Below, in pieces: positions 1,606-16,924 of a stretch of 29,486 nucleotides of DNA (positions within the stretch are counted from its first letter, which is position 1; each line of letters starts with the position of its first letter). Source of the DNA: a virus; the IMG/VR virus record IMGVR_UViG_3300043137_000230, positions 1 to 29,486 of that record; one strand, 5' to 3'. The notes under the pieces were generated by a model that worked only from the letters and a program-made list of their open reading frames with translations, searched no databases and was not told where the DNA came from. The translations under genes were made by a program, and so were the position numbers.

Positions 1606-1783
1606 TTGCTTTACTCCATGTTACGTTGGGAGAGCCTAACTCAGTTAGTTCTTCTGCCATTTGCATTAAGATTTCATTTAACCCTTCAATACTTTCTTGC
1701 TGTTCTTTGATTTGGTACTGTAAGTACACAATGTAGAACAGTGAGCCTAATAGTAAAAAGTTTGTCCAGCCTTCTGTTAACAT
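1592..1783 (-). CDS. Small membrane-anchored coiled-coil protein
   Basis: 63 aa. An N-terminal hydrophobic segment (about residues 7-23, TNFLLLGSLFYIVYLQY) is followed by a Q/E/L-rich amphipathic stretch (about 24-48) that could form a short coiled coil. It resembles small phage membrane proteins of the spanin or holin kind only in architecture; the position among replication genes argues against lysis. It overlaps the metallopeptidase start by 14 nt, and its ATG overlaps the deaminase stop as TAATG. Function unknown. Confidence 0.7.
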   Translation of the reverse strand: MLTEGWTNFLLLGSLFYIVYLQYQIKEQQESIEGLNEILMQMAEELTELGSPNVTWSKANAEG

Positions 1784-2229
1784 TAAATTAATCCTGATTT
1801 AGCTAACCAAGCAGGGTCAGCAAGATTGTTTTGAGGTAGTGTTTGGTTGACACCTACACCTACTTTGGATAAGAATTTTACACCTTCCATGCATTTATAG
1901 GTATCTCGGAATACTACTCGTTTAATTCCCACACTAAAAATAAGTTTAGCACAATCAATACAAGGAGAGAGGGTGCAATACAGAGTAGACCCAACAGTAT
2001 TGCTGTTTGAACGTGCCACCTTTGCAATAGCTTGGGCTTCAGCATGGAGTACAATGTTTGTTTGAGTGTCATTGTTAGTTTTTGGAGGTGTTCCATTATA
2101 TGAGAATGAAATAATGTTATCGTCTTTGACAATTAAAGCACCGACTTTGCGGTCTTCAGCGTAAGATTGTTGAGCAATTAAGTCAGCAACTTTTAAATAA
2201 AACAGGTCCCAGTCGAGTTGTGATTTCAT
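1783..2229 (-). CDS. Deoxycytidylate (dCMP) deaminase family protein
   Basis: 148 aa, normal length for the family. It has the zinc-dependent deaminase signature: H62-A-E64 (HAEAQAI) and PC90-IDC93. The N-terminal DRKVGALIV and YNGTPP segments are typical of phage dCMP deaminases, which convert dCMP to dUMP to feed thymidylate synthesis. The neighbours are a MazG-like protein and the DNA polymerase, consistent with nucleotide-pool control. Its start overlaps the preceding 50-codon gene by ATGA. A different deoxycytidine substrate cannot be excluded. Confidence 0.9.
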   Translation of the reverse strand: MKSQLDWDLFYLKVADLIAQQSYAEDRKVGALIVKDDNIISFSYNGTPPKTNNDTQTNIVLHAEAQAIAKVARSNSNTVGSTLYCTLSPCIDCAKLIFSVGIKRVVFRDTYKCMEGVKFLSKVGVGVNQTLPQNNLADPAWLAKSGLI

Positions 2230-2378
2230 ACGTATTCCTGATAGTTTTCTTCGTATTCGCGGTCTATTGTAGAAAGTTTTTCTAATACTTCTACAAGCAT
2301 TTCATCTTGAAACACATTAGTTGGACGTTCAAAAAGCAGAGTAATTTTTACGTAGTCTTGATCGTTTTCAATAATCAT
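2226..2378 (-). CDS. Small acidic hypothetical protein (50 aa)
   Basis: Read directly from the - strand. It starts at ATG 2378, overlapping the stop of the MazG-like gene (ATGA), and its own TGA overlaps the deaminase start (ATGA). It is an acidic protein rich in E, D and Y with no recognisable domain. The double coupling and absence of gaps are the main evidence that it is a real gene. Function unknown. Confidence 0.7.
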   Translation of the reverse strand: MIIENDQDYVKITLLFERPTNVFQDEMLVEVLEKLSTIDREYEENYQEYV

Positions 2379-2644
2379 TTAAGTACTCCATGTTCTTTAT
2401 CCCATTTGTTGTAATTCATTAGCTTATGATCGTAAGCACGAGCAATATTAGTTCGATCTAATTCCCATTGTGCTGACAATAGGTTAAGCATACATTGTAG
2501 CTGTCCAATTTCTTCTTCAAGGTGGCATTTGTTTGTTATACCTGTTTCAGGATGTGGATGGTTTAAAGTAAACCGAAAAACTTTGCTGATAGCTTGGATT
2601 ACTTCAGCACATTCTTCTTGGGCTGCTACTGGGATTAGATTCAT
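2375..2644 (-). CDS. MazG-like NTP pyrophosphohydrolase-type protein
   Basis: 89 aa, all-alpha. It shows the features of small phage MazG-like proteins: QEECAEVIQAISK near residues 9-21 (EExxAE metal site) and HLEEEIGQLQCML near 42-54 (second acidic helix). Such proteins hydrolyse nucleoside triphosphates to monophosphates, either for pool sanitation or to lower (p)ppGpp. It overlaps both neighbours by ATGA and sits with the dCMP deaminase in the promoter P1 operon. The fold assignment is good; the substrate is unknown. Confidence 0.75.
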   Translation of the reverse strand: MNLIPVAAQEECAEVIQAISKVFRFTLNHPHPETGITNKCHLEEEIGQLQCMLNLLSAQWELDRTNIARAYDHKLMNYNKWDKEHGVLK

Positions 2645-4664: not shown

Positions 4665-5083
4665 TTGAGTTCGCCTAAGAAGCCAATGATAGTACCGTCA
4701 CGCTCAAGGATTTCAAGGCAACGTGTATACCATACTACTTTACGGACTTCTTGTAGTTCGTTATCTTTCTTACCCATACGCATGAGGTACTTATAGATTT
4801 GGCCTAATAGATGTTTCTTTAAACCTTCTTTACCTAAGATAAATTCCATACATTCAATGTACTGGTAGTTACCTACGATACCTTGATAGTGATCAGGATT
4901 GATTTGGTCTTTTACAGTGGTTGTCATAGCGTTATCGATCTCCTTGTTATATGCTTTTGCGAAGGTGTTAGGCCATACTTTTTCTACGAGATATTTATCG
5001 TAGAAGTCTGCTTTGTCATCAATACCGAATTCACGTTTATAGTCTGTTGCTTTCCACAGATGTTTGTCATTATCAATATACAT
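4661..5083 (-). CDS. DUF3310 domain protein
   Basis: 140 aa from ATG 5083; another ATG at 5089 directly abuts GGAGA, so the second, with six bases spacing, is preferred. The C-terminal half contains INPDHYQG, YQYIECMEFILG and a helical GQIYKYLMRMGKKDN segment: the DUF3310 pattern, which includes T7 gp1.7, a nucleotide kinase-like phage protein. The N-terminal 55 residues are less clear. It lies in a stretch with other nucleotide-metabolism genes (deoxyribosyltransferase, MazG-like, deaminases). Confidence 0.82.
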   Translation of the reverse strand: MYIDNDKHLWKATDYKREFGIDDKADFYDKYLVEKVWPNTFAKAYNKEIDNAMTTTVKDQINPDHYQGIVGNYQYIECMEFILGKEGLKKHLLGQIYKYLMRMGKKDNELQEVRKVVWYTRCLEILERDGTIIGFLGELK

Positions 5084-5321
5084 CACCATTCTCCATAATT
5101 TTTACATCTTCATAAGGGGCTGCTACACGGCGGTAGAATTCAAGTTTAGCACCTTCAAGGGCACCTAACACATCGTTAATACGTTGGTATGATTTACCGT
5201 TTAGCATTAGGTACTGTTGGATTACTTGTGTGAATACGAAGTTTAATTCACCTGCATCCATTGGTAATGTTTCTAATTCGGGGATTAGATTTACACGTTT
5301 ATTAGGGTTGATGTAAGGCAT
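5073..5321 (-). CDS. Conserved phage protein (DUF6899-like)
   Basis: 82 aa. The pattern MPYINPNKR at the start, GELNFVFTQVIQQYL in the middle and KLEFYRRVAAPYED plus ENGDVY at the end is that of a very widespread small phage protein I associate with DUF6899; the DUF number is from memory. It is usually carried among early/replication genes. Its end overlaps the DUF3310 gene. Function unknown. Confidence 0.82.
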   Translation of the reverse strand: MPYINPNKRVNLIPELETLPMDAGELNFVFTQVIQQYLMLNGKSYQRINDVLGALEGAKLEFYRRVAAPYEDVKIMENGDVY

Positions 5322-5330
5322 TTGTTTTCT

Positions 5331-5396
5331 TTAACTATAGAACGATACTCGATACCAGATGATATATACTACAATGATTCCTAGTACTGCGATCAT
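5331..5396 (-). CDS. 21-aa single-pass membrane microprotein
   Basis: Start ATG 5396 overlaps the stop of the deoxyribosyltransferase gene (ATGA), with GGAG six bases upstream. The 21 residues are almost all hydrophobic (MIAVLGIIVVYIIWYR then VSFYS), a single transmembrane helix. It fills an otherwise empty 71-base gap with the same coupling used by its neighbours, the main argument that it is translated. Function unknown. Confidence 0.5.
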   Translation of the reverse strand: MIAVLGIIVVYIIWYRVSFYS

Positions 5397-5815
5397 AGAT
5401 ACTCCGCGATGAGTGTGTCACAAGCTTTTTCGACAGTTGAACGCCATTCAGTGACTAATGATTCAAAGAATGGATGGATAATAGAAGCATCAGCTTTGAA
5501 TGCTACTACGGGTTTACGTAGAACATACGAAGCATAGAATACTTCCATAGCAGTACCATGCTTGGCTACTGTTGGGTTATCGAGGTTGACAAGGATGATG
5601 TCAGACTCTTGAATGTCTCGTAGATCTAATTCGAAGATACGTTTCATAGCGCGTTTTTCGAAGTTATGCAGTCTTCGAGTTGGGTCTAATGTGTATACAT
5701 CATTTTGGTTTAGTTGCCATGTAGCAATGTCACGCCAACCTTTTGCTTCAGTTGATGACACATGCTCCATTGGACCTGCTAAGTAGACTGTTCTTACTGG
5801 GTGTGGTTTGTACAT
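5393..5815 (-). CDS. Nucleoside 2-deoxyribosyltransferase-like protein
   Basis: 140 aa. YLAGPM at residues 11-16 is the nucleotide-binding start of the family, LDLRDIQESD at 63-72 contains the conserved Asp, and HGTAMEVFYA around 86-95 contains the catalytic nucleophile E91. The family exchanges bases on deoxynucleosides or hydrolyses the glycosidic bond of deoxynucleotides. Its ATG overlaps the RNA ligase stop (TAATG), and AGAGG lies upstream. With the deaminases and MazG-like protein it may salvage nucleotides or supply an unusual base. Confidence 0.85.
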   Translation of the reverse strand: MYKPHPVRTVYLAGPMEHVSSTEAKGWRDIATWQLNQNDVYTLDPTRRLHNFEKRAMKRIFELDLRDIQESDIILVNLDNPTVAKHGTAMEVFYASYVLRKPVVAFKADASIIHPFFESLVTEWRSTVEKACDTLIAEYL

Positions 5816-6702
5816 TAAAATACCTCTGGTTTAAGTTCTTTAACTTTTTGAGTACACAAGTTATTTAATGTTCTGAAGTCAATCTTAGGATTTTTAAATT
5901 CTTTAAGGATGTTCCACATTTCTTCGGTGATCAGATCATAATAGACTGTATGTAATAAACGAGGGATGTATTTAGATGACCAACCTTCCATTTCATTTAC
6001 GATTTTAGCATGGACTTTATCAACAAGGTGTTTATCAACGAACTTATCAACAATCTTTTCTTCAATGATTTCACCACCGACTAATGGAGCGCCCATTTTT
6101 TTGTGGTGACTTTCTTTGAAGGCATTAGTGATTAGTTTAGCCCATGTTTGACGACCATATTTATTTTCATAAGCATAGTTTTTAATAACAATACCTTCAC
6201 CATTACCTTTACCGTCATCAATTAAGAAGAAGTTACGGTTGAGGCATTCTTGATATGTTTCATAGTTACTGTTTTTGATGATAGCGATAGGTGCAATGTA
6301 GTCTACATTTGCTGTATCGAGGATATCTTTGTATTCGTCATAGTGAAGGTACTTTTCAGAGCCACGATTATATACATCAAAGATATAGAACTTACGCCAT
6401 GCATCTTCACGGTATGTTTTAAGGCTATGGGGTACAAGCCATTCTCCGTAGAAGATTAGGTGAGGGTGTGTTTTGGTAAGTTCGATATGTGCTTTACTGA
6501 TAGACATTGCATGGTAGAAACCTGCGTTATCTGCTTCAAGAGTTAGATGACGATTACGACTACCTGCTTGGATACAGTCATTTTCATACCAGATGCTACC
6601 GTTGGTACCATCAATTTTAGGGAATACATACGAGGTACCTACTTCGATACCATCAGTTTCATCAGTGTGAAGTTTTTCTAGGTGTTGATATTTAATAAAC
6701 AT
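5815..6702 (-). CDS. RNA ligase, Rnl2-like
   Basis: 295 aa. Motif I is K29-IDGTNG, with K29 the predicted AMP-accepting lysine; IFYGEWL (about 83-89) is motif III, FYIFDVYN (105-112) motif IIIa, EGIVIKNY (169-176) motif IV and WAKLI (187-191) motif V. The nucleotidyltransferase domain is complete; a helical C-terminal domain follows. Rnl2-type ligases join 3'-OH and 5'-phosphate RNA ends in duplexes, often repairing tRNA cut by host defences. No polynucleotide kinase is visible in the window. AAGGAAC precedes the ATG, which overlaps the upstream stop (TAATG). Confidence 0.9.
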   Translation of the reverse strand: MFIKYQHLEKLHTDETDGIEVGTSYVFPKIDGTNGSIWYENDCIQAGSRNRHLTLEADNAGFYHAMSISKAHIELTKTHPHLIFYGEWLVPHSLKTYREDAWRKFYIFDVYNRGSEKYLHYDEYKDILDTANVDYIAPIAIIKNSNYETYQECLNRNFFLIDDGKGNGEGIVIKNYAYENKYGRQTWAKLITNAFKESHHKKMGAPLVGGEIIEEKIVDKFVDKHLVDKVHAKIVNEMEGWSSKYIPRLLHTVYYDLITEEMWNILKEFKNPKIDFRTLNNLCTQKVKELKPEVF

Positions 6703-12605: not shown

Positions 12606-12875
12606 TTAGATTAATTCAAGAGTTTGTTTGATGCTTTTGATATCGATTGTTTTAACTTTTACTACGCGTACTCGATTTAGTTCCATAGTATCCCATGAAT
12701 CATGCATATCTTGCACAATCTTTTCTAGTGGCATATCACCGGGATAATCCCACAACATATCTTCTTCAATGATACCGTCAGCATTAACTGTGAAGATTAG
12801 GTATGTGTAACTAACTTTATTGGTGTTAGGTTTATTGCTCTTTGACACGCTGGACACGGTTTTGCTAGTAGCCAT
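12606..12875 (-). CDS. Hypothetical protein (89 aa) overlapping the deaminase gene
   Basis: 89 aa. A Ser/Lys/Asn-rich first 20 residues, then TYLIFTVNADG and MLWDYPGDMPLEK. AGGAAAG precedes ATG 12875. The first 79 bases overlap, in another frame, the segment encoding the Cys zinc ligands of the deaminase at 12797; no in-frame ATG exists nearer to the deaminase stop, so the overlap seems real. Function unknown. Confidence 0.65.
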   Translation of the reverse strand: MATSKTVSSVSKSNKPNTNKVSYTYLIFTVNADGIIEEDMLWDYPGDMPLEKIVQDMHDSWDTMELNRVRVVKVKTIDIKSIKQTLELI

Positions 12876-13108
12876 TTGTTAGACTTTCCTGTTCTGAAGA
12901 TATGAATAGAATGTGCTTTGGTTAGATCTTTACATCGGATGATAGCATCAATCTCAGCATGTAGGTATATTTTTTCAGGTAAACCTACTGCTGCAGCACA
13001 TTCAGCTTGGTACGGATGAGACTTGGTATAGTTGTTTTTACCTATACTAAGTACTCTTCCTCGTTTGTCGTAGATAATTGCTGTTAAATACTGCTTCTCC
13101 CTTTTCAT
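12797..13108 (-). CDS. Cytidine/dCMP deaminase-like protein, short form
   Basis: 103 aa. H50-A-E52 (LHAEIDAI) and KPC85-PAC88 form the zinc site and proton shuttle of the deaminase superfamily. It is shorter than the dCMP deaminase at 1783 and differs from it throughout. The end, IKLVTHT, corresponds to the strand after the Cys pair, so the domain looks complete. It overlaps the upstream gene by 62 bases. The substrate, free nucleotide or nucleic acid, is unknown. Confidence 0.75.
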   Translation of the reverse strand: MKREKQYLTAIIYDKRGRVLSIGKNNYTKSHPYQAECAAAVGLPEKIYLHAEIDAIIRCKDLTKAHSIHIFRTGKSNKWLLAKPCPACQRAINLTPIKLVTHT

Positions 13109-16036: not shown

Positions 16037-16153
16037 TTAGTAGTAAACAACTACGTCAACCATCTCTGGTGACCATTGATTTAACTCCCTAACATCTCTT
16101 GTTTGGTAAATTAATTTACCTGTCTTCTTAAAGTACACGTAGTACATAGTCAT
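16037..16153 (-). CDS. Small hypothetical protein (38 aa)
   Basis: ATG 16153 overlaps the upstream TGA (ATGA) with AAAGGAG before it; TAA at 16037. The product starts MTMYYVYFKKTGKLIYQTRD, short beta-hairpin-like, and ends with hydrophobic and tyrosine residues. The excellent ribosome-binding site and coupling support translation. Function unknown. Confidence 0.65.
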   Translation of the reverse strand: MTMYYVYFKKTGKLIYQTRDVRELNQWSPEMVDVVVYY

Positions 16154-16341
16154 TCTCCTTTAGAAACAATCTCTTCAAACTCAGATAGCGCTAAAGCCAA
16201 CTGAGAACAAGCCATGAAGCCTGATAAGAACATGATAGCAACAAGCTTGATGTCGTAGCCGTCTCTCTCGAAACAAACTAACGCATAACGAGCTGCAGCG
16301 AACCAAACAAACAGGATAGCCCCGTGGATAGCGTACTTCAT
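16150..16341 (-). CDS. Small two-helix membrane protein, first leftward gene (63 aa)
   Basis: 63 aa from ATG 16341, preceded by the near-perfect AAGGAGGAATAT. Two hydrophobic segments (about residues 3-23 and 32-52) are separated by a short charged turn, suggesting a hairpin in the inner membrane. It is the first gene of the leftward block, facing the large divergence region. A longer in-frame reading upstream (164 aa) is an effect of the stop-free composition there. Holin-like size, but function unknown. Confidence 0.75.
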   Translation of the reverse strand: MKYAIHGAILFVWFAAARYALVCFERDGYDIKLVAIMFLSGFMACSQLALALSEFEEIVSKGE

Positions 16342-16855
16342 ATATTCCTCCTTGGATTGAAGTAACAAGAGCAAGAGCGCTCTCCACAGTCCGTAGACTG
16401 CAGAGAAAGTTCTTAAGAAAACCACAAAGCAGTGAGAGCACCAGCCAGACACAGCGAGTACACAACACCAATGAACACAGGCAACAAACCAAACACAACG
16501 CCGTACACAACGGACAACAGACACAAGCAACAGAGAACAGTGAGCAGAGAGTAGAGAGCAGACACGGGACACCTCCAAGAAGAGACAGGGCAAGAGCGCC
16601 CAGACGAGACCAGCCAGCAGCAGCCAGCGACCACCACGAGACAAGGGGGGTCACAGAACCACAACAGGGGTATACCAACAAACCTTTGATTCTTTTTCAC
16701 ACACAAAGAAAAAGATACCCATAAGAAAACACCCACCAGACTTCCCCTCAGAACCTACCCCAAAAACCTCCCTTTTAAACCCTAGAGCACCCCTAAAAAA
16801 TTATAGTATATTTTCTCCCATAAAATTATAATAAATATTACAGTAATAATTTCTA
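16342..16855. other. Divergence region: T-depleted island, C-tract array and AT-rich segment
   Basis: No gene is supported here. From 16421 to 16680 the + strand has only about 10 T in 260 bases (hand count). From 16718 to 16793 seven runs of three or four C occur every 10-14 bases with almost no G. From 16798 to 16855 the DNA is very AT-rich and contains the palindrome TATTAC-A-GTAATA (16836-16848) and two TATAAT boxes on the - strand (16800-16805, 16825-16830), possible leftward host-type promoters without clear -35 boxes. The whole lies between the leftward and rightward gene blocks; a replication origin or control region is likely. Confidence 0.7.
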
Positions 16856-16872
16856 TTAGTCGGTTCCTATTA
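16856..16872 (+). promoter_or_regulatory. Promoter P6 of the late block, T7-like phage RNA polymerase type
   Basis: TTAGTCGGTTCCTATTA followed by GGAAAA, 14 of 17 consensus matches, predicted start G16873. It reads into the large terminase gene with a 52-nt leader that contains the inverted repeat ATAACGT-ACGTTAT (stem 7, loop 8) before the AGGACAC ribosome-binding site. Confidence 0.68.
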
Positions 16873-16924
16873 GGAAAATTATTTTTATAACGTCATATAT
16901 AACGTTATTCACTAGGACACAACA

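Follow-up and report, generated by a model that had tools for sequence, protein, structure and literature searches.

The T-depleted island at the point where two gene blocks diverge in this phage is real. It consists of the leader and the first small gene of a leftward early transcript and is nearly free of A in the RNA sense, and its reading as a bare control element is rejected. The window, i.e., the whole stretch of DNA analysed (29,486 nucleotides), is a 29.5-kb viral record from a podovirus-like phage with SU10-type portal and capsid proteins and a terminase.

Composition and Layout of the Island

On the plus strand, T occurs 10 times in the 260 nt at 16421–16680 and 9 times in the 240 nt at 16441–16680, which exactly reproduces the counts of the first-pass annotation and places the island, as stated there, where the two gene blocks diverge. 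The T-poorest segment has its optimum at 16415–16670 (8 T in 256 nt), with a log-likelihood score of 67 compared with 14 for the next-best T-poor stretch, and the window holds only one such island. The binomial probability of its T count is approximately 1e-29 to 1e-31, and when the whole window was simulated 200 times with an order-2 Markov model, the T-poorest 256-nt segment had 50 T.

Read on the minus strand from the terminase start, a rightward T7-like promoter is followed by an AT-rich stretch with a leftward TATAAT-like element, the C-poor leader, the box CTTTGTGTGTGAAAAAGAATCA, and the A-free tract with its leader and 50-aa gene. The features of this region are as follows:

16857–16877, plus strand: TAGTCGGTTCCTATTAGGAAA, a putative T7-like promoter of the phage for transcription of the terminase block
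16800–16805, minus strand: candidate -10 element TATAAT of a putative leftward host promoter
16671–16858, minus strand: C-poor, G/T-rich leader adjoining the island, G-depleted on the plus strand (10 G in 188 nt); the same in relatives
16687–16708, minus strand: conserved box CTTTGTGTGTGAAAAAGAATCA, immediately upstream of the A-free tract (alignment of relatives)
16415–16670, minus strand: the A-free tract, part of the leftward early RNA and T-free when read on the plus strand; kept in relatives
16645–16650, minus strand: conserved run of six C residues, with invariant CCCC columns in a 48-locus alignment
16566–16670, minus strand: untranslated A-free leader; the corresponding leader segment has 4–6% A over 62 loci
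About 16572–16576, minus strand: Shine-Dalgarno site GGAGG of the first early gene
16413–16565, minus strand: first early gene, GTG start, encoding a 50-aa hydrophobic protein (homologs in family 19; dN/dS 0.23 against L002)
16369–16412, minus strand: stem-loop of the GAGCGCTCTTGCTC type past the first gene
16150–16341, minus strand: second early gene (63 aa), with ordinary A content (A 0.20)

The box is also present in recognisable form at distant loci of the T-free half. Part of it, together with the bases after it (16676–16692 in the window), resembles an IHF site (AATCAANNNNTTG) by eye, in some relatives only. Stem-loops of the GAGCGNTCTTGCTC type, at 16369–16412 in the window and in relatives, sit before several early genes and resemble the T7 processing sites between early genes.

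The first-pass annotation held that no gene explains the island and that three long leftward frames in it exist only because the strand cannot form stop codons. The frame at 16413–16565 proved to be a gene: it is preceded by a Shine-Dalgarno site, has homologs and shows a dN/dS below 1. The gene alone is nevertheless an insufficient explanation of the depletion, since this extends to the untranslated leader, to synonymous sites and to start codons.

The dN/dS of the window gene was 0.23 against its counterpart at locus L002, with a median of 0.50 within its family of four. In two other island gene families, the medians were approximately 0.29 (family 4, the conserved first-gene family) and 0.24 (family 13). 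Related genes in the islands are thus under purifying selection, with dN/dS of about 0.25–0.3. The family 4 proteins had no confident Pfam match, the window 50-aa protein had no PHROG match, and neither had a match in PADLOC.

Conservation Among Relatives

Among close terminase relatives whose upstream sequence is long enough, nearly all carry the island. Two loci (L072 and L076) have none, but they offer just 401 and 320 nt upstream, and a few other loci end early. All 12 near-complete genomes have the island, and scanning five of these over the whole record gave a single strong island per genome; G012 also has another T-poor stretch, which is far weaker. Many distant relatives also carry it, including some with approximately 60% identity (12 T in 1046 nt in L181 and 4 T in 677 nt in L186). 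The comparison of related loci demonstrated that T-depletion is strand-specific and is kept while the sequence changes; it appears to be under selection, as the first-pass annotation had suggested. The length is not fixed as supposed there, however, since the islands of relatives range from about 116 nt up to 905 nt.

Roseobacter phage CRP-7, which is in culture, contains only 15 A in 737 nt at 57347–58083, including a 200-nt run without A. The gene on its A-free strand is read, by eye and alignment and at low identity, as distantly related to family 4. The annotated gp72 of CRP-7 (MK613349; 141–836 of locus L081) sits on the T-less strand, where stop codons cannot form; it is probably spurious, and the real gene is more likely the one on the other strand (113–499 of L081). 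The passages on CRP-7 that were consulted do not mention the pattern.

In the A-free half of the phage family, the tracts end in a T run in L187 and L209 and otherwise mostly at stem-loops or within a gene. The terminases of L182 and L184 are neighbours on the tree; a strong T-free island is present in L184, whereas L182 has none near its terminase and only a weak T-poor stretch (8 T in 121 nt) elsewhere in its 18-kb record. Gene presence and absence across 12 genomes identified no single factor that follows island strength. Direct end repeats of 121 nt in G001 and 57 nt in G005 are consistent with circular assembly of complete genomes.

Base-by-Base Avoidance of Adenine

Adenine is avoided base by base in the RNA sense, i.e., thymine in the template, throughout the leader and the one or two small genes that come first in the leftward early block, and the avoidance fades over 1–1.5 kb. 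Across 62 distinct loci, A in the RNA-sense strand rises smoothly from 4% at 80–120 nt past the box to approximately 30% by 1–1.2 kb. At fourfold sites, A accounts for 0.4% in A-free genes versus about 35% in the remaining early block. When starts were chosen by a simple Shine-Dalgarno rule, the A-poor genes near the box started with GTG (21), ATG (15) or TTG (6), compared with ATG (219), GTG (6) and TTG (1) for distant genes. The avoidance is weaker in one subgroup (L035, L037, L049, L050, L054, and L064).

Copies of one gene family within the same genome contain 3–5% A near the promoter versus 28–30% far from it (fractions of 0.03 versus 0.28 in L058 and 0.05 versus 0.30 in L065). These undepleted distal copies also count against the idea that the island simply results from encoding small proteins that are hydrophobic or of low complexity. 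The encoded proteins are indeed hydrophobic or Ala/Ser/Val-rich, but the leader, synonymous sites and start codons share the depletion; the leader and fourfold sites already refute this account, and we regard it as practically untenable.

A mutational process tied to strong early transcription and clearing the promoter-proximal non-template strand of A (or G) would account for the gradient and for the near-total loss at neutral sites. However, the replacement of lost A differs by site, being mostly T and G at fourfold sites and C and G in the leader, the sister halves lose different bases, and 13 genomes contained no reverse transcriptase, which makes such a bias quite improbable. The absence of reverse transcriptase in these 13 genomes also led us to reject a diversity-generating retroelement, a system that shares the adenine-specific loss but differs in this enzyme and in that the sister clade here loses G.

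No k-mer or motif was enriched inside the island. A primase-site reading was rejected, with GTC at 0.99 of expectation, as was avoidance of UV dimers in the template, with no special avoidance at GG/CC steps. The island had no Rfam match at gathering score and no conserved RNA fold: RNAalifold gave 0 pairs and no covarying structure, and the fold z-score was 0.19.

Transcription Programme

A single-subunit phage RNA polymerase is encoded in 14 of 14 genomes or records. A repeated phage promoter of about 21–23 nt, TAGTCGGTACCTAATAGGRAA, was found in the window and nine relatives; at this stringency it was not found in G003, G004, G007, and CRP-7. In the window, TAGTCGGTACCTAATAGGRAA sites lie at 2794, 3779, 11570, 12047, 14725, and 16857, in both orientations. 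The first leftward phage-type promoter of the window lies 2.2 kb past the terminase start, and the nearest one in G001, G005, G009, G010, G011, and G012 lies approximately 2.2–5.6 kb past it; G002, G006, and G008 have none before 20 kb. No leftward phage-type promoter was seen upstream of the island. These promoter positions suggest that the unit is read by the host RNA polymerase before the T7-like polymerase of the phage takes over.

The island adjoins a T7-like promoter with AT-rich DNA after it, a position that also fits a replication origin or single-stranded protein-loading site, as proposed earlier, or an R-loop, and an antisense transcript would give stable hybrids. In a nearest-neighbour calculation, however, the energy of the sense hybrid was no better than baseline. 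The island is coding and without a motif, its end mostly tracks gene ends, stem-loops and terminators, and the constraint follows a transcription unit that, in the sister clade, lacks G and mostly ends at terminators. We therefore consider an origin or loading site highly improbable.

A Sister Half Without G

In the relatives of L227, the corresponding unit is C-free on the plus strand and so G-free in the RNA sense (6 G in 956 nt, 3 in 721, and 4 in 680). In G033, six successive 100-nt blocks contain no G, and the tract starts at a TATAAT-like element. Twenty tract ends were displayed, of which two are truncated at the contig end (L272 and L279) and two run into the next gene (L273 and L286). 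Among the 16 readable ends, 13 were judged by eye to lie at or beside an intrinsic terminator, taken as a GC stem-loop followed by a T run, or a T run alone in three (L247, L248, and L252). Two tracts end without a terminator (L293 and L303), and the irregular L313 was not counted. In a TerL tree of 53 representatives, the 23 T-free rows and the 10 C-free rows are split without mixing by a branch with support of 99/94; rows scored as having neither include some just below the threshold and some, CRP-7 being an example, whose island may be located beyond the retrieved part of the record.

A constraint that begins close to the 5′ end of one RNA and runs along it, stops at a terminator in most of the G-free half and acts on single nucleotides could reflect protection of the first early mRNA, which would avoid the base cut by a host or phage ribonuclease, A in one half and G in the other. 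Such a nuclease would need specificity for one lone base. The Shine-Dalgarno site, however, retains G or A exactly where cuts would hurt most, and later early genes are unprotected; protection at the RNA level thus appears unlikely.

The two halves also differ in their pyrimidine enzymes. A gene of the thymidylate synthase (TS) family (PF00303; E value, 2.8e-61) is present in seven of eight records of the C-free half. In seven translated proteins of this half, Asp replaces the pyrimidine-binding Asn of TS (RSGDWMVGxPSD versus RSxDVFLGxPFN). Asp at this position is the signature of a cytosine substrate, and Asn is found in TS and dUMP hydroxymethylase (PMC5175136). The signature points to a dCMP-type enzyme. 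Reading G033 gene by gene placed a MazG-type pyrophosphohydrolase after the TS-family gene.

Neither TS nor ThyX was found in 13 genomes of the A-free half, and a thymidylate synthase route to modified thymine was rejected for this half accordingly. No recognised thymine-modifying enzyme of a known kind was found there. A deoxyribosyltransferase-like protein and a DUF6899 protein are instead present in all 15 complete or near-complete genomes of the A-free half and missing from the C-free half. The window genes for these two proteins, and for two further nucleotide enzymes, are as follows:

5393–5815, minus strand: nucleoside 2-deoxyribosyltransferase-like protein, present in all complete genomes of the T-free half tested
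5073–5321, minus strand: DUF6899 protein, with the same distribution
2375–2644, minus strand: MazG-like NTP pyrophosphohydrolase (weak Pfam match, clearer PHROG match)
1783–2229, minus strand: dCMP deaminase

The window also encodes a small stand-alone deaminase (12797–13108), a second dCMP-deaminase-like protein, and an RNA ligase in the early block (5815–6702), possibly for RNA repair.

These clade-specific pyrimidine enzymes are left unexplained if the first unit is simply transcribed while ATP (or GTP) is scarce and is written without that nucleotide. Scarcity would account for the avoidance of a single base and for the effect of promoter distance. ATP is normally the most abundant NTP, however, and translation needs both ATP and GTP, so that we consider this explanation very unlikely.

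A Possible Link to Modified DNA

The missing template base is T in one half and C in the other, both pyrimidines, and the C-free half carries a cytosine-type enzyme; from these observations we propose that whichever pyrimidine a phage alters in its own DNA is kept out of the template of the unit that the host transcribes first. Each half would alter one pyrimidine of its virion DNA, cytosine in the G-free half and thymine in the A-free half. The altered template base would slow the host RNA polymerase, or host enzymes would attack it and leave abasic sites. With no altered base in its template, the first unit could then be transcribed at once and yield the first small proteins. The composition pattern, gene content and conservation are well supported; this cause is a hypothesis, to which we give somewhat less than an even chance.

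Several observations favour avoidance of an altered pyrimidine. The effect concerns a single base and involves no motif, A is shunned alike in leader, codons and start codons, and the effect depends on distance. The identity of the base partitions with the TerL halves, the enzymes are clade-specific, and no leftward phage promoter lies upstream. The TATAAT-like start in G033 and the terminators, judged by eye, at most readable ends of the C-free units point the same way. Other observations count against it. The C-poor upstream leader still has A (template T), which would require either initiation of transcription close to the box or tolerance of a small number of these bases. The A-free half also yielded no thymine-modifying enzyme of a known kind. 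G034 has the dCMP-type enzyme and no G-free unit, G037 is a weak case, and G022 has neither a T-free nor a C-free island. The association of island and enzyme is confounded with phylogeny, resting on one deep split. The host polymerase reads known modified phages such as T4. Pseudomonas phage M6 is described in the literature as thymine-hypermodified, but its genome has no T-free or A-free island; M6 also differs in having a TS-family gene, which the A-free half lacks.

Comparison With Known Systems and Significance

The arrangement resembles the early region of T7-like (Autographiviridae-type) phages in its early genes, apparently read by the host polymerase, its single-subunit RNA polymerase, its T7-like promoters and its stem-loops between early genes. 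It differs in the SU10-type portal and capsid proteins and in the position of the RNA polymerase gene, about 20 kb from the island. The T7 early genes are not, to our knowledge, devoid of any base. The Asp-signature enzyme of the C-free half, which lies beside a pyrophosphohydrolase in G033, recalls the T4-type replacement of cytosine by way of dCMP hydroxymethylase, and we know of no early unit of T4 that lacks a single base. A limited keyword search of open-access literature found nothing on single-base-free early genes. Nor are we aware of any other phage family in which one nucleotide is purged throughout from protein-coding genes, including synonymous and untranslated sites.

The purge described here reaches up to a kilobase and is kept across a broad phage family. 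It may follow a family-wide rule, which we advance tentatively and as rather less than an even prospect: the first early unit would use only three of the four letters, the omitted one depending on which base the phage replaces in its DNA, and the sequence would thereby report a modification of thymine in one half and of cytosine in the other. The alternation between A-free and G-free units in sister groups makes the cause testable in cultured phage. If the avoided base is indeed the one that is modified, base composition would by itself disclose DNA modifications in phages that have not been cultured, and it would show a cost of such modification for transcription by the host.
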